A stretch of 64,000 nt of DNA from assembly GCA_029194665.1 (NCBI GenBank), contig JARFXO010000002.1, positions 612,001 to 676,000 on the forward strand, written 5' to 3'. Below are positions 25,399-35,032 of the stretch, one piece after another. The notes beneath the pieces are model-generated. The model ran no database searches. It saw nothing but the letters and a program-made list of their open reading frames with translations, and was not told where the DNA came from. The translations under genes were made by a program, and so were the position numbers. The first letter of the stretch is position 1. Each line of letters begins with the position of its first letter. Origin of the DNA: Nitrospira sp. (GTDB lineage Bacteria; Nitrospirota; Nitrospiria; Nitrospirales; Nitrospiraceae).

Positions 25399-25627
25399 TG
25401 TATGGTGTTTTACCGTTCATTCTTGAGAAGCTACGAGGAGCTGGGGTGGAGGGACATCGACTAGCATCTGCCGCACAGCGGACAGACTGTCTGAGAACTC
25501 TCCCACCCACACCACAAACGTCGATGAAGAATCTCGCGGCAGGACCCCTGACCGCCGATTTGTCTGCAAGCTCACGTTGGTGTGTGCCACCCCAGCGTCA
25601 TTCATTTCTGCTTTCAAGGAGGCGACG
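25399..25627 (+). ncRNA. Candidate bridge-RNA region of the IS110 element
   Basis: IS110-group elements encode a structured bridge RNA from the left non-coding end that pairs with both donor and target DNA (established for IS621). This element has its only long non-coding stretch here. Several paired segments are visible, for example around GGGGTGGAGGGACATCGAC and TGCCACCCCAGC. I could not assign the loops with confidence. Confidence 0.4.
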
Positions 25628-26584
25628 ATGATGCAACCCGTTCTGAATGTCGGCGTGGATGTGGCCAAAGACGCCGTTGTGGTCGCATGTGCCGAGCACA
25701 GTTTTCCGGTCCAGCGTATTCCCAATCAGCGGGCCCCCTTGCGGACATGGCTGAAATCTCTCCCAGCCGGCAGCCGCATCGGCTTGGAATCCACCAGCAC
25801 CTATCATGAATTGCTGGCGGCCCTGGCGCAGGCCCACGGGTATACCGTCTTCCTGCTGAACCCGTTGGATACTCGGCACTACGCCAAGGCCATGGGCAAC
25901 CGGGCCAAAACCGACCGGGTGGATGCGGAATTGATTGCCCGACTCATCGCGCAAGAGCACACGCACTTGCGTGCCTAGACGCCTCCCACGGCGAATCAAC
26001 GCAAGCTGGATCAGCTGATTCGACGGCGTGCCACGATTGTCCGTCTCCAAGGCACGCTCAAGCTGACGATGCGCAATCTGGGCGGCTTTGCCGCCGAACT
26101 CAAGGCCGTGATGAGCAAATTGGAGGCGTTGATTGCCAAGATTGATACGGCCATGGCTGCGATTGCGGCTGGTTCGCCCCAACACCAGGAGGCCCAACAT
26201 CGGTTGCAAACCATTGTGGGCGTCGGTCCCCTGGTAGGCCTCAGCTTGACCAATACGTTGGAGCGCGTACCGTTTCGCAAGGCGGATGCCTTCGTCGCTT
26301 TCACCGGGTTGGATCCGCGGGCGAATGACTCGGGACAGAAAGCCGGTCGCCGCCGCTTGTCCAAACGCGGCCCGGCCGAGTTGCGCCGCTTGCTGTTTAA
26401 CGCTGCGATGTCGGCCGTCAAAACTACCGTCTGGAAACCGATCTACGAATCGTACCGCACGCAAGGCTGGAGTACGACCGCCTCGTTGGTGATCATCGCT
26501 CGCAAAATCGCCCGGACCGCGTGGTCTATTCATCATTACCGGACAACATTTAATCCAGAGCGAATAACAAAATGCTTGACATGA
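25628..26584 (+). pseudogene. IS110-family transposase interrupted by a TAG stop
   Basis: The frame runs from ATG 25628 (after AAGGAGG) to TAG 25976-25978, then continues in the same frame to TGA 26582-26584. The N-terminal part has the DEDD RuvC-like residues: NVGVDVAKD, GLESTSTYHELL, and NRAKTDRVDAELIARL. The C-terminal part has the Tnp domain: TIVGVGPLVGLSL, FVAFTGLDPRANDSGQKAGR, and LSKRGPAELRRLLFNAAMSA. Without the TAG the protein would be about 318 residues, normal for the family. The stop follows HTHLRA, where relatives usually have Tyr or Trp, so one base change explains it. The element is probably inactive unless the stop is suppressed. Confidence 0.85.
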
Positions 26585-27369: not shown

Positions 27370-28125
27370 CTATTTTCCATTCTGTTCCTGCGGCATCGCC
27401 TCCTTAATCAAATCGTCGAGGAATTTATTAACCGGCGTATACATAGACGCCGTTTTTCTGTTCAGGAAATCCGCCATCATGCCGCCCAAGGTGGCGCGGG
27501 CGATGTCCTCCAGATACACCGGATCTTGGGAGACCCCTTCGCCCTGCATGCTCGTTTCAGCTGCGGAGACCCAGACCAACTCCCCGATATTCGCATCCCA
27601 CAGCTGCAACACGAGCCGCATATCGCCCCAACGAGTCTGCGTGAGCCGTACGTCAAGGGCCTTCCAACGTTCGGTCATGGTTTGCGTGAAGGAGGCCAAG
27701 CGCAGCTGGAACACGTATCGCGCGCCGATCGCGGCACCGATCCTGCGCAGGGAATCACGATCAAGGATGTTGCTCTCCTCATAACCCGCTCTCATGCGCA
27801 TATACTCCGCGGCCAACCCTGCCCCGTTGATGCGTGCCACAGTCTCTTGCGGAGACACGACCTTCCATTCGGGCGTGACCTTGCGCAGAATCTCATGGAG
27901 ATAATAGACCAACGCAACCTCGTTCCCCCGCAAGCCCGCGACGGTCACGGCCGAGAGCAGCGCGACCGGTTCCTGCTGAAAGATGGCAGGCTCACCCGAT
28001 GCAGAGAAGGGAGTCGAAGTGGTTCGCACCTGCCACCCATAGATCGAACTCGCGCAGCCGCTCAGGATGAAACAAGCCGACAGCACGCTTGCACACAGGG
28101 CGGATGCCGCAACCCATGACTTCAT
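27370..28125 (-). CDS. Lipoprotein paralogous to the 28471 product
   Basis: The 251-residue product starts at ATG 28125 after GGGGGAT, giving a signal peptide with lipobox LSGC. The mature part starts ASSIYGWQVRTTSTPFSAS. Later motifs ILDRDSLRRIGAAIGARYVF, LRLASFTQTMTERW and EGVSQDPVYLEDIARATLGG recur in the neighbouring protein encoded on the other strand. The combination of a GARY(V/I)FQ strand and a helical C-terminus hints at a CsgG- or TolB-N-like fold, but this is inference. The two genes are divergent and share a 345-base gap. Confidence 0.78.
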   Translation of the reverse strand: MKSWVAASALCASVLSACFILSGCASSIYGWQVRTTSTPFSASGEPAIFQQEPVALLSAVTVAGLRGNEVALVYYLHEILRKVTPEWKVVSPQETVARINGAGLAAEYMRMRAGYEESNILDRDSLRRIGAAIGARYVFQLRLASFTQTMTERWKALDVRLTQTRWGDMRLVLQLWDANIGELVWVSAAETSMQGEGVSQDPVYLEDIARATLGGMMADFLNRKTASMYTPVNKFLDDLIKEAMPQEQNGK

Positions 28126-28470
28126 CTCAATCCCCCACCCTCGACCTTCATTATTCATGGACAGTTCCGCTGCAACCGCGCACCAGCTGCTACGACGATG
28201 CAAGGCAGGCATGATCCATACGCGTATTGTCGTTCCTTATACCCAGATCGACGTCGGAACTCAACGGAGTGACTCGGCCGTGACGCTCCCGCCCGACAAC
28301 ACATTGACAACGGCGAGTACACCTGTCACTTGTCTTAGAGCGATTCAACCGATACGCTGTCGCCTCGACACATTCAGGAACCAGTCAGCCGGCGTCTCAC
28401 CGATTCCAACAATTGCAGGTTTTCACAACCTCACGATGAGCGGAGCGTGCCTGAGCGGAGGGAGAGAAGA
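28126..28470. other. Divergent intergenic region between two paralogous lipoprotein genes
   Basis: The gap carries the 5' regions of both genes. TTGACA occurs at 28305 on the plus strand, but no well-spaced -10 box follows. No gene, repeat or strong hairpin was recognised. Confidence 0.35.
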
Positions 28471-29277
28471 ATGGAAGACAGAGAGACGATTCGTCGGTTG
28501 CTGCAAAGCACGGCTCTATACGCGGCTCTGGCGCTCATGCCTAGCCTGGTCGCGGGCTGCACAAGTGCACTCCATGGCTGGCAGGTACAAACGGTTTCGA
28601 CGCCGCAATTGCCGTCGTTTGATCACACCCTGCTCGAAAAAGAACGCGTCGCGATATTCGGGGCTCCGGCACCCATACCAATCTTGGGGAACGAAGTAGG
28701 AATGGAGACATTTCTGGTCGGCGTATTGAGCAGAGTTGCTCCAAAAATCATGGTCGTCGAGCCGAGGGAAATGTTTACGCGCATCAATAGACAGGGCCTG
28801 ACGGGAGACTATGCGAGGATGAGAAGCATTGCGGAGCAGGCGAATATTCTGGATCATGAGCCGCTGCACAAAATCGGAGTTGCCGTGGGTGCGCGCTACA
28901 TCTTTCAACCCCGCTTGATGTTGTTCACACAACACATGACCGATCGCATGTCGACACCCCTCTTCGGCGTGAGGCTCTCTCAAACTCGCGCCACCGTCAT
29001 GCGGCTCTCGTTGCAATTGTGGGATTCCGAAACCGGGGCGCTGCTCTGGTCCTCGATCGCCGAAGGGACCATGCAGGGTGAAGCGATATCCCAGGATCCG
29101 GTCTACTTCAAAGATATCGTGCGGGTCATCCTGGGAAGCATCATTACCGATTTCGTCAACGACAGGACCGGCGCGAAGTACACTCCGATCTATAAACTGC
29201 TTGACGATTTGCTCCAGACCTCCCCGCCGGAGAAGGAACCCAAGCCTGGCAAATCGAGTCCCGGCAAACCGACCTAG
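28471..29277 (+). CDS. Lipoprotein paralogous to the 27370 product
   Basis: The 268-residue product starts at ATG 28471 after GGAGGGAG; an in-frame GTG at 28447 is unlikely. The signal peptide ends with lipobox VAGC, followed by TSALHGWQVQTVSTPQLPS. Shared motifs with the neighbouring paralogue include ANILDHEPLHKIGVAVGARY, LFTQHMTDRM and GEAISQDPVYFKDIVRVILG. A Lys/Pro-rich tail (EKEPKPGKSSPGKPT) is specific to this copy. Function unknown; probably outer-membrane-associated. Confidence 0.8.
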   Translation: MEDRETIRRLLQSTALYAALALMPSLVAGCTSALHGWQVQTVSTPQLPSFDHTLLEKERVAIFGAPAPIPILGNEVGMETFLVGVLSRVAPKIMVVEPREMFTRINRQGLTGDYARMRSIAEQANILDHEPLHKIGVAVGARYIFQPRLMLFTQHMTDRMSTPLFGVRLSQTRATVMRLSLQLWDSETGALLWSSIAEGTMQGEAISQDPVYFKDIVRVILGSIITDFVNDRTGAKYTPIYKLLDDLLQTSPPEKEPKPGKSSPGKPT

Positions 29278-29327: not shown

Positions 29328-30074
29328 TCACCGTTTGCGCAGCTCTCGTAACATCCGTTCGGCCTCCGGCTTGTGTTTCCGTTCCCAGGCATAGCGATAG
29401 TGCGGGTGTTCGAATTCGACCACCGCGATCAACTGTTTTCTCGCCTCTTCGACCCTGCCCTGTTTTTTGTAGACGGTCGCCAGCATCATGCGCGCATTCG
29501 CATAGTTCCCGTCGGCGGCGATCGCCCGTTCCAGGTACACTTGGGCTTTCTTCTTGCTTCCGCCGAGGATCCGGGGGAGCTCCATCATCAGACCGCCCAT
29601 CATCTGTAACGCGAGGGAATGATTGGGGTTCAATTCGATCGCGCGCATCGCGCCATGTCTGATCGTACTCACCGTCAACGCGGCGTTCGTGACCCCCTGG
29701 AGGCGCGCCGCGTTGCCGATATTCAGGGCATAGAAATAATGAGCGTCGGCATTGGTCTCGTCGAGCTCGAAGGACTGTTTGGCCGCCTTCGCTCCCGCTT
29801 CGTAGGCAGCCAGCCGTTTTGCCTTGTCGGTCAGCAAGTCGTCGGCAAGATCGAAATAGGTTTCTGCAAGTTGAACGAGCAATTCCGGTGAGGGGTTGCC
29901 TTCGTCCACTCGGTCGAGCAGCGCCTGCAGATCCTTTTCAAGCGATTGCGGATATCCCGGCGGCATCTCGTTGCGCTGCGCTGAGGCACGATCTGATGCG
30001 ATGAGGGCGACGACCACGAGGAGGCTTGCCGCGATCGATGTCGTCATCCTCATCCCGTTTCTGAATGTCCTCAT
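29328..30074 (-). CDS. Secreted TPR-repeat protein
   Basis: The 248-residue product has a signal peptide ending ASAQ, then TPR-like helices: PELLVQLAETYFDLADDLL, AYEAGAKAAKQSFELDETNA, and VYLERAIAADGNYANARMML with KKQGRVEEARKQL. The layout resembles TatT-type periplasmic TPR proteins. Its ATG overlaps the stop codon of the upstream gene (ATGA at 30074-30071), so its translation is coupled to the phospholipase-like protein and the two probably act together. Confidence 0.82.
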   Translation of the reverse strand: MRTFRNGMRMTTSIAASLLVVVALIASDRASAQRNEMPPGYPQSLEKDLQALLDRVDEGNPSPELLVQLAETYFDLADDLLTDKAKRLAAYEAGAKAAKQSFELDETNADAHYFYALNIGNAARLQGVTNAALTVSTIRHGAMRAIELNPNHSLALQMMGGLMMELPRILGGSKKKAQVYLERAIAADGNYANARMMLATVYKKQGRVEEARKQLIAVVEFEHPHYRYAWERKHKPEAERMLRELRKR

Positions 30075-32050
30075 GGATAGTATCTCCAATCAAGGATCAG
30101 TCGCAGACCCACGGACCAGACCGGGTTAAGATCCGCCTCGGGACCGCCAGCAGGTAGGACAACCGCCGTGGAATAGGGAACCGTCACGCCGGTGAACAGC
30201 TGCATCAGCAATGTCGCGCTCTGGTTGGTGGAAAACCTCCGGAATGGCCTGTACTCCAGGACCGGTATATCAAAATACAAGGACTTGTACCCGACCAGTT
30301 GGCCACTGCCGTCCGACGTCGCGCTCGGCACGAACAGCCGATCCGATCCGTCAAGGCCGAACAGAGTCACACCGAGCTCCCGGCCGACTACGAACTGAAA
30401 ACGGCCGATCGGGGTGGCCCATCCGGACTGCCAAGGAATGAGACCTCCATTGCTCGCGGCCACGGCCATTTGCATGTACCGATCCGGCGCGAAGAGGTAG
30501 AGAGGCGAGAGCAGGAGGAGATCGCCCGGGATGAGGAAGAACGGCATCCGCAGGCGGGTCGAAATTCCTGTGTGCGATGGGATCGCAGCAGTTAGGCTGC
30601 CGCCTTGCGACGAGTATCGATTCGTTGACGAAGTATCGGCGCGCAGTCCGACCGCGAGGAAGATCAGCCCGTCACCCGAGTCGTCGAGCACTCCTTCCAG
30701 GCCCATGCCGACTCGTGCGGAGAGATCGAGTCCTCCTATGACACCCCCACCTTCCGAGCCGGCGAATCCGCTGGAGACGGATCTGCCGTCGATCATGCCG
30801 GCCAGCCCGACGAAGCGTCCAAGTTCGCTACGGAATCGCGGCATCGCGCCGAGCCCCGGCCCGAGACCCGGCATGGGGGTCCACCTCAGCACTTCAACTG
30901 CCAATTGCCGTGCCTGGGGTGGCGCGCGCAATCCTTCCGGCTCTTGCTTGAGCGTGTCGTTTCTGCACACATCGAAGGCGTCGGCCTCGATCGGCGCAGC
31001 CGCTGTGTAGGGCATATCGACGGCCCGCGGACGACCGGCGGCCGTGTCAAGCACTTGCTCGAGGCTGGTGCGGATCGCCACCGCAGTCCGCTCGGCATCC
31101 TCCGGGCGCATGTGCGCGTCGCCCATCACCACGATCGACTTCCTGTTCTTCAGCCAGAGAAAGACCTCGAGGCCACCCTCGTTGTAGAGATCATGGGTAC
31201 CCTTGCGCTGAGAGGCATTGCCCCAGGTGCCGGCGATATGGCCGGCGGAAAAGATATCCTGCAAGAAATGCAGCGCAAAGCCCTCGTCGAACAGCATGGA
31301 GCGCGCGAGCGCCTGGCGCTCCTCCGGCGCCAGTCTGTCCTTCGCAAGGCGAGTCGCCTTCTGTAGCGCTCTCAAGTGATACCATTCCCAGACTCCCATC
31401 GCGTTGATATCAGACCCGGCGCGCAAGGCCAGCTCCCCATATTCCTCCGGCGAAATATCACTGTGCGGGCGAGCAAGCAGAAAGTGAGCGTTGTTGGACT
31501 GTGCCCTGGTCGCATACTCGCGATCGGCACGTTGTAGCCCAAGGTCTGCAGCGCGAAGCGAGTTGATGCGAGCGGCCCTGGCGGTCTCGCTTTCCAGCTG
31601 GCGGTGAAAATCAACGATCGGGCTCTGATCGCCAGGGAGCTGTTCGGGGGACGGGAGGACTTCGATGCGTGCGAGGTCGACCTTGAGCTTTGCCGCGACG
31701 GCGGCAACCGCGAGGACCCATTTCGATTCGAGCACAATGCCGGTCATGTCCTGACTCGAACAGGAGTGATCTCCGGCAATCGCCGCCAGCGCGGCCCAGT
31801 CGATGCAAGCCGGCTTGAGACCTTGCTCGGCATCGGCACCCTGCTCGCAGAGGCGTGGTTCATGGGTCAGTCGAGCCTCCCGCCACAAGTCGTCGAAGAT
31901 GGCTCTGCGCGCCGGGTCAAGGTTCTGCACCGCCAGGATTGAGATATCGCGGTGCTCCGGATAGACCCAGGCCAAGGCCGGGGCGGCGAAGATCCAGCCG
32001 CTCAGGGACGCGATCGTCAACGATACGATGGCAAGAGGTATCCCGATCAT
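30071..32050 (-). CDS. Zinc-phospholipase-C-like protein with beta-rich C-terminal domain
   Basis: The 659-residue product has a signal peptide cleaved after PALA, leaving Trp as first residue (WVYPEHRDIS). In the zinc-dependent phospholipase C and S1/P1 nuclease fold the free N-terminal Trp and a nearby His bind zinc. Further candidate ligands are GDHSC, the HFLQDIFSAGH motif (HxxxDxxxxxH) and THDLYNE. This order matches the family, although I cannot align it exactly. From about residue 390 the protein is beta-rich (FLAVGLRADT, RFQFVVGRELGVTLFG, SVGLRLILDWRYYP), suggesting an outer-membrane barrel or similar domain. It is 2.5 times the length of a simple zinc PLC. The TPR gene overlaps its stop codon. 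Confidence 0.7.
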   Translation of the reverse strand: MIGIPLAIVSLTIASLSGWIFAAPALAWVYPEHRDISILAVQNLDPARRAIFDDLWREARLTHEPRLCEQGADAEQGLKPACIDWAALAAIAGDHSCSSQDMTGIVLESKWVLAVAAVAAKLKVDLARIEVLPSPEQLPGDQSPIVDFHRQLESETARAARINSLRAADLGLQRADREYATRAQSNNAHFLLARPHSDISPEEYGELALRAGSDINAMGVWEWYHLRALQKATRLAKDRLAPEERQALARSMLFDEGFALHFLQDIFSAGHIAGTWGNASQRKGTHDLYNEGGLEVFLWLKNRKSIVVMGDAHMRPEDAERTAVAIRTSLEQVLDTAAGRPRAVDMPYTAAAPIEADAFDVCRNDTLKQEPEGLRAPPQARQLAVEVLRWTPMPGLGPGLGAMPRFRSELGRFVGLAGMIDGRSVSSGFAGSEGGGVIGGLDLSARVGMGLEGVLDDSGDGLIFLAVGLRADTSSTNRYSSQGGSLTAAIPSHTGISTRLRMPFFLIPGDLLLLSPLYLFAPDRYMQMAVAASNGGLIPWQSGWATPIGRFQFVVGRELGVTLFGLDGSDRLFVPSATSDGSGQLVGYKSLYFDIPVLEYRPFRRFSTNQSATLLMQLFTGVTVPYSTAVVLPAGGPEADLNPVWSVGLRLILDWRYYP

Positions 32051-32231: not shown

Positions 32232-34973
32232 TCAGCGGGTCTGGGCGTCCCGACTGTGGGCCGCCTTCTTTCCTCCCTCTAAGAGCTTCTTTGGATCGAC
32301 CCTGCCGAACAGTTCGATGAGCGCCGCGACGCAACCGGTCCATCCCGTCTGATGGCTCGCGCCCAAACCGGCCCCGTTGTCGCCATGAAAATACTCATAG
32401 AACAACAGATTATCCCGCCAATGACGGTCGGTTTGGAATTTCTCCGCCCCGCCGAATACCGGACGGCGTCCGCTGTTGTCTCGCAGAAAGATCCGCGTGA
32501 GCCGTTCGACAATTTCCCTGGCCACCTCGTATAGATTCATCAGCCGTCCGGATCCGGTCGGACATTCGACCTTAAAGGTATCCCCATAATAGAGATAGAA
32601 CTGGACGAGGGCTCGAATGATGAGCACGTTGACCGGCACCCAGACCGGTCCACGCCAGTTGGAATTACCGCCGAACATGCCCGTGTCCGATTCAGCCGGC
32701 AGATACCCGACCCGATACTCCTGGCCGTTCACGTAAAATACGTAGGGATTCCGCTCGTGGAACTTCGAAATCGACCGCAGCCCGTGGGGACCGAGAAACT
32801 CGTCTTCGCTCAGCATGATCGCCAGGATGCGCCGCAGGCGCTCCTGAGTGACCAAAGCCATGATTCCGCGCTCGTCTACCCCACGATGCCCTTCCCCGGT
32901 AGCATGAATCCAATGAAACAGCTCCGGCATCCTTGTGAATCGCTCTGCAATGACCCGTTTCGCCTGCGGCACCAGTTCGCGTTGCCATGGCTCAATGACT
33001 GTCGTCGCACAGAGAGGTAACAGACCGACCATCGACCGGACTTTCAGATGGGTCGCGCTTCCGTCCGGGAGTCGGAGGAGATCATAGTAGAACCCGTCTT
33101 TCTCATCCCACATCCCGATCCCGTCGGCCGCAGAGCCGTTCATACCGGCCGCGATCCATACGAAATGTTCGAAGAACTTCGCGGCCAAGTCATCGTACAT
33201 GGGGTCCTGAGATGCAAGCTCCACAGCCAGCTCCGCCATATTCTGGCTGAACAGAGCCATCCATGCCGTCCCGTCGGCTTGCTCCAAATAGCCGCCCGTC
33301 GGCAACGGAGCACTACGGTCGAACACGCCGATGTTGTCGAGGCCGAGAAAGCCGCCTTCAAACACGTTCTTGCCGTTCCGGTCCTTGCGGTTCACCCACC
33401 AGGTAAAATTGAGCGTCAGTTTGGAGAATGCCGCCTTGAGAAACTCGATATCTGCCTCGCCGCGGCGTCCGACATCCATTCGATGAAGAAAGAGCGTGGC
33501 CCAGGCATGGACCGGTGGATTCACATCGCTGAAATTCCATTCGTAGGCCGGCACCTGTCCGTTCGGATGCAGGTAATGGCCGGTCAGCATGAGCTCCAAC
33601 TGGTGCCGCGCGAAGTCGGGATCGACGACGGATAAAGCCGTCGTATGGAACGCCAAGTCCCATGCGGCGTACCAGGGATACTCCCACTTGTCCGGCATCG
33701 AAATAATGTCGTCGTTCACCATGTGGAACCACTCCCGGTTCCGGACGACATTGGTTCCTTTGTGGAGCGGATGAGCCTGCCGTTCTTCAAGCCAGCGGTC
33801 GACGTCGTAATAATAGTATTGCTTGCTCCAGAGCATGCCTGCGAGCCCTTGGCGCATGACGTTGGAGCGATCCGGATCGGCTTTGACAGCGGCGGGGGTC
33901 ACGGCATCATAGAACTCATCCGCCTCCCTGTGTCGCACCTTGAATTGCGCGTCGAATTCTCCAAACGGGTCCCGCAACTCACCGGGAGCGGCCTCGGCGA
34001 GACGAAGGCGAATCGTCTGTTCACCGCGTGGGTTGACGGTGAGTTGGTGGTGAGCGGAGACTTTTGTTCCTATCGCCTCAGGGTTGACCGCATCCCGTTT
34101 CCCTTGCACGACATAGTCGTTGATTCCATCCTTGACGTAGGGGCCGGAGTTGGAGCCGCCGAAGAGCTTGGCATGGTTGGTTTCGTTGTCCGTGAACAGC
34201 AACGGGATCTCGCCATCGCAATACAGATGGTAGTCGGTGAGGGACTCCTGGAACAGAGGATCCGTGTGATGGGCATGAACAACGGAGCCTTTCGCTCGTT
34301 TCACCCTGCGCAGCACCGGCTTGCTTCCTCCATAGGCCCAGGACCAGGTATTCCGAAACCAGAGCGTGGGTAGGACATGGAGGCCGGCCTTCTCCGGGCC
34401 ACGATTATGAATCGTGATCTTGATGAGGATATCGTTCGGCGCCGCCTTCGCATACTCGACAAACACGTCGAAATACCGGTCGTCGTTGAAAATGCCTGTA
34501 TCGAGGAGTTCATACTCCATGTCATGGCGATTTCTGCGCCGATTCGTCGAGACCAAGTCTTCATAGGGAAAGGCTGCCTGCGGATATTTGTACAGGTACT
34601 TCATGTAGGAGTGCGTCGGAGTGCTGTCGAGGTAGAAATAGTAGTCCTTCACGTCCTCGCCATGATTGCCCTCGCTGTTCGTCAGGCCAAAGACCCGTTC
34701 CTTGAGGATAGGGTCCTTGCCGTTCCAGAGCGCCAGCGCGAAACAGAGGACTTGGTGGTCATCAGAAATCCCCGCCAATCCGTCTTCTCCCCAACGATAG
34801 GCCCGCGATCGCGACTGCTCATGGGTGAAATAGTCCCAGGCATTGCCGTCCGTACTGTAATCTTCCCGGACAGTCCCCCACTGCCGTTCGCTCAGATACG
34901 GACCCCATTCTTTCCAAGCAGCGGCTTTCGCTTTGGCTTCCTCCAACCGGCGATGTTCTGACGTCTGTGCCAT
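32232..34973 (-). CDS. GH63-like glucosidase (MGH1-type), paralogue 2
   Basis: The 913-residue cytoplasmic protein starts at ATG 34973, seven bases after GGAGG; the ATG six bases earlier is too close. It shares long identical blocks with the first copy, such as GPYLSERQWGTVREDYS, SEGNHGEDVKDYYFYLDSTP, WEYPWYAAWDLAFHTTALSV and GLDNIGVFDRSAPLPTGGYL. The likely catalytic Asp in AAWDLAFH is kept. The first copy has a longer Lys-rich N-terminus and the REP-encoded insert; this copy has neither. No GH13 partner is next to it. A role in alpha-glucoside turnover is inference. Confidence 0.88.
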   Translation of the reverse strand: MAQTSEHRRLEEAKAKAAAWKEWGPYLSERQWGTVREDYSTDGNAWDYFTHEQSRSRAYRWGEDGLAGISDDHQVLCFALALWNGKDPILKERVFGLTNSEGNHGEDVKDYYFYLDSTPTHSYMKYLYKYPQAAFPYEDLVSTNRRRNRHDMEYELLDTGIFNDDRYFDVFVEYAKAAPNDILIKITIHNRGPEKAGLHVLPTLWFRNTWSWAYGGSKPVLRRVKRAKGSVVHAHHTDPLFQESLTDYHLYCDGEIPLLFTDNETNHAKLFGGSNSGPYVKDGINDYVVQGKRDAVNPEAIGTKVSAHHQLTVNPRGEQTIRLRLAEAAPGELRDPFGEFDAQFKVRHREADEFYDAVTPAAVKADPDRSNVMRQGLAGMLWSKQYYYYDVDRWLEERQAHPLHKGTNVVRNREWFHMVNDDIISMPDKWEYPWYAAWDLAFHTTALSVVDPDFARHQLELMLTGHYLHPNGQVPAYEWNFSDVNPPVHAWATLFLHRMDVGRRGEADIEFLKAAFSKLTLNFTWWVNRKDRNGKNVFEGGFLGLDNIGVFDRSAPLPTGGYLEQADGTAWMALFSQNMAELAVELASQDPMYDDLAAKFFEHFVWIAAGMNGSAADGIGMWDEKDGFYYDLLRLPDGSATHLKVRSMVGLLPLCATTVIEPWQRELVPQAKRVIAERFTRMPELFHWIHATGEGHRGVDERGIMALVTQERLRRILAIMLSEDEFLGPHGLRSISKFHERNPYVFYVNGQEYRVGYLPAESDTGMFGGNSNWRGPVWVPVNVLIIRALVQFYLYYGDTFKVECPTGSGRLMNLYEVAREIVERLTRIFLRDNSGRRPVFGGAEKFQTDRHWRDNLLFYEYFHGDNGAGLGASHQTGWTGCVAALIELFGRVDPKKLLEGGKKAAHSRDAQTR

Positions 34974-35032
34974 GGTCATACCTCCATGTAGCAGAATCGT
35001 TCACACCATCTCTTTTTCACGGCGATGAAGCT

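Follow-up and report, generated by a model that had tools for sequence, protein, structure and literature searches.

A probable zinc phosphodiesterase of the phospholipase C/P1 nuclease fold joined to a predicted outer-membrane barrel in Nitrospira

Zinc phospholipases C (PLCs) and P1-type nucleases are known mainly as secreted soluble enzymes. The spacing between the N-terminal Trp and the following His is 13 in the Bacillus cereus PLC, and the Legionella proteins PlcA-PlcB-PlcC were reportedly described by Aurass in 2013 as a "novel zinc metallophospholipase C family" (as cited in PMC6617341). Here we describe a gene from Nitrospira sp. lying within a stretch of 64,000 nucleotides (assembly GCA_029194665.1, contig JARFXO010000002.1, positions 612,001 to 676,000 of the forward strand), which we call the window. 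From its sequence and predicted structure we consider it probable that the gene encodes an enzyme of the PLC/P1 nuclease fold, a zinc phosphodiesterase anchored in the outer membrane, and most likely a PLC. The type Vd patatin autotransporters (PlpD, FplA) likewise combine a phospholipase with an outer-membrane barrel, but they are serine hydrolases of another fold, with a POTRA domain, a 16-strand barrel and export to the surface. The gene and its first two regions are as follows.

30071..32050, minus strand: whole gene, 659 amino acids, comprising a signal peptide, a domain of predicted zinc PLC/P1 nuclease fold and a predicted 8-stranded outer-membrane barrel (open reading frame, homologues, model)
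31970..32050, minus strand: putative signal peptide, residues 1-27, predicted cleavage PALA/W (sequence, and residue -1 in 34 rows)
31031..31969, minus strand: putative catalytic domain, residues 28-340 (mature 1-313), mainly helical, of predicted zinc PLC/P1 nuclease fold (models, VIA-align)

Residues 1-27 look like a Sec-type signal peptide with an A-x-A end, and the residue before W28 is Ala in 32 and Gly in 2 of the 34 homologue rows that cover this position. A preliminary description of the locus had placed the cleavage after PALA, with Trp as the predicted first mature residue, and this conservation agrees with it. The His that it saw after the Trp is H33, that is Trp+5, which is the register of the P1/S1 nucleases, and the further His and Asp motifs that it expected do follow in order, as H261-x3-D265-x5-H271 and then H286, all invariant in 36 homologues. 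A linker joins the helical region, which extends to about residue 340, to a C-terminal part that is beta-rich as had been described, though about 250 rather than 270 residues long. Neither the protein nor its 36 relatives matched any Pfam or NCBIfam model. This includes the zinc phospholipase family PF00882 (Zn_dep_PLPC), for which no member gave a match at E values up to 1, and the S1/P1 nuclease family PF02265; both families are also absent from the Nitrospira genome itself. A Pfam match of the C-terminus to DNA_pol_B_exo2 (E 0.25) and a PDB sequence match to a phage tail tube (E 0.5) were rejected as chance.

The AlphaFold2 model of the full protein had a predicted local distance difference test score (pLDDT) of 80, and that of the mature N-terminal domain (residues 28-403) a pLDDT of 86.7 with a predicted template modelling score of 0.90. 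When this N-domain was compared with PDB structures by VIA-align, every one of the top 21 rows was a zinc PLC or an S1/P1 nuclease (Z 7.3-10.0, root-mean-square deviation 3.6-5.0 Å across 157-192 residues), and the next row fell to Z 3.9, where unrelated helical proteins began. The zinc PC-PLCs (B. cereus PLC, 1AH7; Listeria PC-PLC, 8CQM) scored Z 8.5-10.0 and the S1/P1 nucleases (P1, 1AK0; S1, 5FBA; SmNuc1, 8QJM; AtBFN2, 4CXV) Z 7.3-8.7, while the full-length model found the same superfamily at Z 7.7-9.3. The chains start in register, with model residue 2 placed on residue 2 of P1 nuclease and on residue 28 of SmNuc1, the mature chain of which begins at W27. The helical zinc PLC core that the preliminary description had anticipated is present in the predicted structure, and together with the residue conservation described below this makes adoption of the zinc PLC/P1 nuclease fold by the N-domain a well-supported prediction.

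In SmNuc1, three zincs are held by W27, H32, D71, H88, H141, D145, H151, H175 and D179 (PMC11705217). The proposed counterparts are W28, H33, D94, H189, H261, D265, H271, H286 and N290, with ligand identities assigned from conservation and fold.

31967..31969, minus strand: W28 (mature residue 1), N-terminal amine and carbonyl expected as Zn3 ligands (invariant in 35 of 35 rows; in register with P1 and SmNuc1)
31952..31954, minus strand: H33 (mature H6), proposed Zn3 ligand at Trp+5 as in P1, S1 and SmNuc1 (invariant, deep relatives included; SmNuc1 W27/H32)
31769..31771, minus strand: D94 (mature D67), GDH motif, proposed Zn1 Asp and general base (invariant in the deep alignment, unlike D84)
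31484..31486, minus strand: H189 (mature H162), HF motif, proposed Zn1 His (invariant in family and deep alignments)
31238..31270, minus strand: H261-x3-D265-x5-H271 (mature H234, D238, H244), proposed Zn1, bridging Zn1/Zn3 and Zn2 ligands (invariant; SmNuc1 spacing)
31181..31195, minus strand: H286-x3-N290 (mature H259, N263), proposed Zn2 His and the position of the Asp/Glu of known enzymes (SmNuc1 H175/D179)

The spacing of H261, D265 and H271 equals that of H141, D145 and H151 in SmNuc1, and the distances from Trp to His (+5) and from His to Asp (+4) and to the next His (+10) are identical in the two proteins. Among the 36 homologues, the first eight of the nine ligands are invariant in every row covering them. 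In a deeper alignment of 8 rows, with identity to the Nitrospira protein down to 19%, the seven His and Asp ligands of these eight remain invariant and Trp1 is kept in 7/8, the deep relative L077 having Gly instead; the invariant residues (mature numbering) are E5, H6, G66, D67, H68, Y152, A156, H162, F163, F231, H234, L236, D238, G243, H244, H259 and G266. When 7 invariant His and 10 invariant Asp were placed randomly over 376 positions, H-x3-D-x5-H arose among the invariants in 0.3% of the trials, while 1.9% had an invariant His at Trp+5. Metal binding is expected from this pattern and the model. The proposal of D94 and H189 as Zn1 ligands follows from conservation, with D71 of SmNuc1 and D55 of PC-PLC, and H88 of SmNuc1, as their respective counterparts. 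D84, a candidate for the Zn1 Asp through its invariance among close family members, was rejected because the deep relatives conserve D94 and not D84. For the Zn1 His, H95 was set aside in favour of H189, which fits the motif and the spacing better (in the short relative L085 the His-to-His distance is 47 residues by hand count, against 53 in SmNuc1); in addition, H95 is replaced by Phe in the Pseudomonadota protein L102, where the Asp of D94 is kept as GGDF.

For the C-terminal 251 residues the model shows a beta-barrel of transmembrane type, in line with the membrane-barrel reading of the preliminary description.

30074..30826, minus strand: predicted C-terminal outer-membrane barrel, residues 409-659, eight strands, aromatic beta-signal GLRLILDWRYY (VIA-align, strand pattern)
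30410..30541, minus strand: periplasm-side segment T2, residues 504-547 (IPGDLLLL...NGGLIPWQ), predicted helical (top-residue frequency 0.68 vs 0.47 in the outside loops)

In VIA-align, residues 405-659 matched the 8-stranded barrels NspA (Z 12.1), OprF and OmpA (both 11.6) and OmpW (10.7), so that the model points to an 8-stranded outer-membrane protein (OMP). In/out alternation is clear in seven of the eight modelled strands and both termini lie on one side. The OmpA/NspA/OmpW barrels share with it this fold (Z 10-12), the alternating strands and the C-terminal aromatic signal, but the family protein differs from them in having no sequence-family match, an N-terminal enzymatic soluble domain and an unusually conserved periplasmic helical segment. 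The mean top-residue frequency is 0.69 in the periplasm-side segments vs 0.47 in the four outside loops (p 2e-6), and the conserved set includes T2, 44 residues long and partly helical, which is possibly a dock for the enzyme domain or for lipid. With mean pairwise identities of 0.50 for the C-domain and 0.53 for the N-domain, conservation is nearly equal in the barrel and the enzyme domain, so the barrel probably does more than serve as an anchor. Because both ends of the 8-stranded barrel share one side, the N-domain would lie in the periplasm, facing the phospholipid leaflet, and the conserved inter-strand segments share that side; the topology thus speaks against the earlier suggestion that the protein is surface-bound.

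We propose that the protein would be exported by Sec and then cut by signal peptidase after ALA, freeing Trp1, whose N-terminus would complete a three-zinc site with H6, D67, H162, H234, D238, H244, H259 and N263 (mature numbering). In Listeria PC-PLC, a residue added ahead of the Trp abolishes activity (PMC10576769). The barrel would sit in the outer membrane and hold the enzyme at the periplasmic side, near the phospholipid inner leaflet, where it would remove phospholipid head groups to yield diacylglycerol for lipid turnover or phosphate recovery. Lipolytic lipoproteins encoded nearby in some relatives could extend the lipid degradation. With the zinc PC-PLCs and PF00882 the family protein shares mature Trp1, the ligand order and H-x3-D-x5-H, but it differs in lacking a PF00882 match, in its Trp-His spacing of 5, in Asn for the last Glu and in its outer-membrane barrel. 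With the S1/P1 nucleases it shares Trp1 with His at +5, H-x3-D-x5-H, a later His and an aromatic residue after the Zn1 His; unlike them it has no Pfam match, no base-binding Asn/Asp, Asn, Asp or Cys as last ligand, a large insertion between the Zn1 Asp and His, and a fused OMP barrel.

Several observations weigh against the proposed phospholipase. Foldseek alone gave the N-domain no significant match (best E 0.22), and sequence and profile searches of PDB chains reached none. Profile-profile comparison to the S1/P1 nucleases was weak (P 0.039), with an alignment that covers the Trp1-His6 helix only, albeit in register, and neither this nor the comparison to PF00882 was strong enough to establish homology, although the same method also gave a weak score (P 0.018) for a pair of accepted superfamily members. 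Since the Foldseek scores are not significant, the fold assignment rests on VIA-align, backed by the active-site pattern. At the ninth ligand position (mature H259+4), 24 of the 36 rows have Asn, 9 have Asp and 3 have Cys, which truly departs from the Asp/Glu found in known enzymes. Finally, the sequence link to a phospholipase described below runs through L102, a putative PlcC judged by its length, motifs and missing signal peptide.

The same fold and metal site could instead belong to a periplasmic, outer-membrane-tethered nuclease or 3'-nucleotidase resembling S1, P1 or SmNuc1 and scavenging nucleotides or phosphate, and the preliminary description had left the choice between lipase and nuclease open. 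The Trp-to-His spacing of 5 is that of P1 and SmNuc1, SmNuc1 and S1 are within the fold matches (Z 7.4-8.7), and the Zn1 His is followed by an aromatic residue, F163 in mature numbering, comparable to Phe81 of S1 and Tyr89 of SmNuc1. The spacing is, however, not specific to nucleases, since PF00882 proteins in Nitrospirota also carry His at Trp+5. The base is bound in S1 by Asp83 and in SmNuc1 by Asn91, each three positions beyond the Zn1 His, whereas position 192 of the family is Leu in 29, Ile in 4, Met in 2 and Val in 1 of the rows, so that the base-binding Asn/Asp is replaced by an aliphatic residue in 36/36. There is also the lack of PF02265 matches in the protein and its genome, and the sequence link leads elsewhere: a deep profile reaches the Pseudomonadota proteins L101 (E 4e-14), L102 (E 5e-13) and L105 (range 4e-14 to 4e-10 in their own genomes), which carry the motifs GGDF, DHF and H(F/S)LTDLFSAGH. 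The match to L102 spans the metal-binding core (EH, GGDF, ADHF, HFLTDLFSAGH, HD), and this protein of 385 amino acids has no evident signal peptide, as is also the case for the 385-residue lecithinase PlcC of Pseudomonas fluorescens (PMC2613904). The P. fluorescens PlcC/Preuss PLC group would accordingly have a metal-binding core in common with the family by way of its profile match to L102, although PlcC lacks a Sec signal (PMC2613904) and L102 shows no barrel and has Phe for the His of GDH. Because the base-binding Asn/Asp is missing we regard the nuclease as unlikely; the aliphatic His+3 residue and the PlcC-like link favour, but do not prove, phospholipase activity.

Two further explanations appear improbable, to much the same degree. 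The N-domain might be a degraded or repurposed member of the fold, inactive and with a structural, lipid-binding or metal-binding role, with the barrel as the working part. Asn at the ninth ligand in 24/36 rows, the Gly for Trp in L077 and the strong barrel conservation would fit such a protein, but invariance of the other ligands in 36 homologues and deep relatives is not expected of a dead site, the ninth position is Asp in Bacteroidales members, and Asn is known as a metal ligand in other binuclear phosphoesterases. Alternatively, the enzyme domain might pass through the barrel, or beside it, to the cell surface, like an autotransporter, and act on external lipids or prey. Type Vd patatin-type autotransporters such as FplA (PMC5724010) do show that fusion of a phospholipase to a barrel occurs. 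The top barrel matches here, however, are 8-stranded, closed and OmpA-like, which is too narrow for a passenger; neither a POTRA domain nor a 12- or 16-strand barrel was seen, and the conserved segments share a side with the termini, which in known OMPs face the periplasm. The periplasmic phospholipase thus remains our preferred explanation.

A single scan of genome contigs returned 34 relatives (best-segment identity 42-93%) from Nitrospira, Burkholderiales and other Pseudomonadota, Bacteroidota and Ignavibacteria, and whole-genome searches brought the full-length relatives to about 40, all of which retain both domains. Rivibacter subsaxonicus DSM 19570 and Steroidobacter agaridevorans are cultured relatives, the latter with the alpha/beta-hydrolase gene described below next to the family gene. 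The family is unnamed and undescribed, within the known zinc PLC/P1 nuclease fold. Its occurrence is patchy, with members in 4/98 near genomes and in 8/395 Nitrospirota genomes in a sampled search, 3 of these 8 being weak matches only. In a maximum-likelihood tree, of which the root is arbitrary, Nitrospirota and Pseudomonadota sequences share a group of 12 (support 100/99), and this placement suggests that the family spread by horizontal transfer; no full-length relative was found in phage and plasmid collections. The deep relatives L077, L084 and L085, and also L095 and L096, have a signal-peptide-like start, a beta-rich end and no Pfam match, and L081, L083, L090, L091 and L093, found by profile and not by the WVYPEHRD pattern, retain Trp and His. 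A 146-residue open reading frame (L097, 1357-1794, minus strand) joins the family N-terminus (AWVYPEHRN...) to the last strand (...FGLGLRIAFDWRYYL) and is an internally deleted gene copy. Proteins of more than 670 amino acids from Pseudomonadota and Nitrospirota (L106, L107 and L086) have in common with the family only a HFLQDRW-x-x-GHMWERW version of the metal motif; L106 and L107 matched no Pfam or NCBIfam family on scanning, and with L086 they form another undescribed branch of the fold. Of 148 sampled Nitrospirota genomes, 62 encode PF00882 zinc phospholipases and 14 encode S1/P1 nucleases; the genome described here has neither.

Downstream of the family gene lies the gene of a tetratricopeptide repeat (TPR) protein.

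29328..30074, minus strand: secreted TPR protein, 248 amino acids, with its own signal peptide (sequence; TPR_17, E 1.9e-11)

The ATGA overlap reported for the two genes is exact, the enzyme gene ending in ...TACTATCCATGA and the TPR gene starting with ATGAGGACA at 30074. The suggestion that the TPR protein is a dedicated partner is weak, since the two genes were found adjoining only in three closely related Nitrospira (the window, L002 and L003/L005); it was rejected as a conserved partner and would at most be an accessory of that lineage. A lipoprotein-like alpha/beta-hydrolase with a GYSKG motif adjoins the family gene instead in L006-L010 and L108 (1549-2658, minus strand), from a related Nitrospiraceae genus, Steroidobacter and Burkholderiales, and lies about 1.6 kilobases (kb) away in a Rhodocyclaceae locus (L035, 11467-12465). 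Across these seven loci it is upstream of the enzyme gene in Pseudomonadota and downstream in a Nitrospiraceae genome. It has no Pfam family above the cut-off and no match in the window's own genome, and is the better candidate for a partner than the TPR protein. The neighbours vary in the Bacteroidota loci. A gene for an MscS-type mechanosensitive channel, or a related gene, lies within a few kb in L019, L024, L026, L028, L030, L032 and L036, the assignment being Pfam-confirmed for L019 only. Beside the TPR gene in the window, a paralogous lipoprotein-like pair is arranged divergently, head to head (27370-28212, minus; 28447-29277, plus), with a GWQV-T-STP start and the motif SQDPVY in common; neither gene has a Pfam family above the cut-off. 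Further away, an IS110-like transposase (25577-26584, plus) in two open reading frames (25577-25978, 26069-26584) is probably a disrupted insertion element. On the other side, a gene for a 915-residue MGH1/GH63-like glycoside hydrolase (32232-34979, minus) separates the family gene from acetate kinase, which in Nitrospira LK70 (L005) is directly upstream of the family gene.

More broadly, and as a tentative view that we hold at somewhat less than even weight, the proteins may form an undescribed, horizontally spread family (Bacteroidota, Pseudomonadota, Nitrospirota) of PLCs that attack the outer membrane's inner leaflet from the periplasm. Their second zinc site would be modified (Asn, Asp or Cys), their barrel would help to capture lipid, and their action would give outer-membrane lipids a route of turnover that forms diacylglycerol. 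The family offers a sequence-level link from PlcC-like phospholipases to the classical Trp1 zinc enzymes, and the Asn, Asp or Cys at its ninth position is a natural series at a single metal ligand. Its barrel fusion, which is family-wide and absent from Pfam and NCBIfam, would fix zinc PLC/P1 chemistry at a defined membrane face and would suggest PLC-type turnover of outer-membrane phospholipid in nitrifiers and other environmental bacteria.

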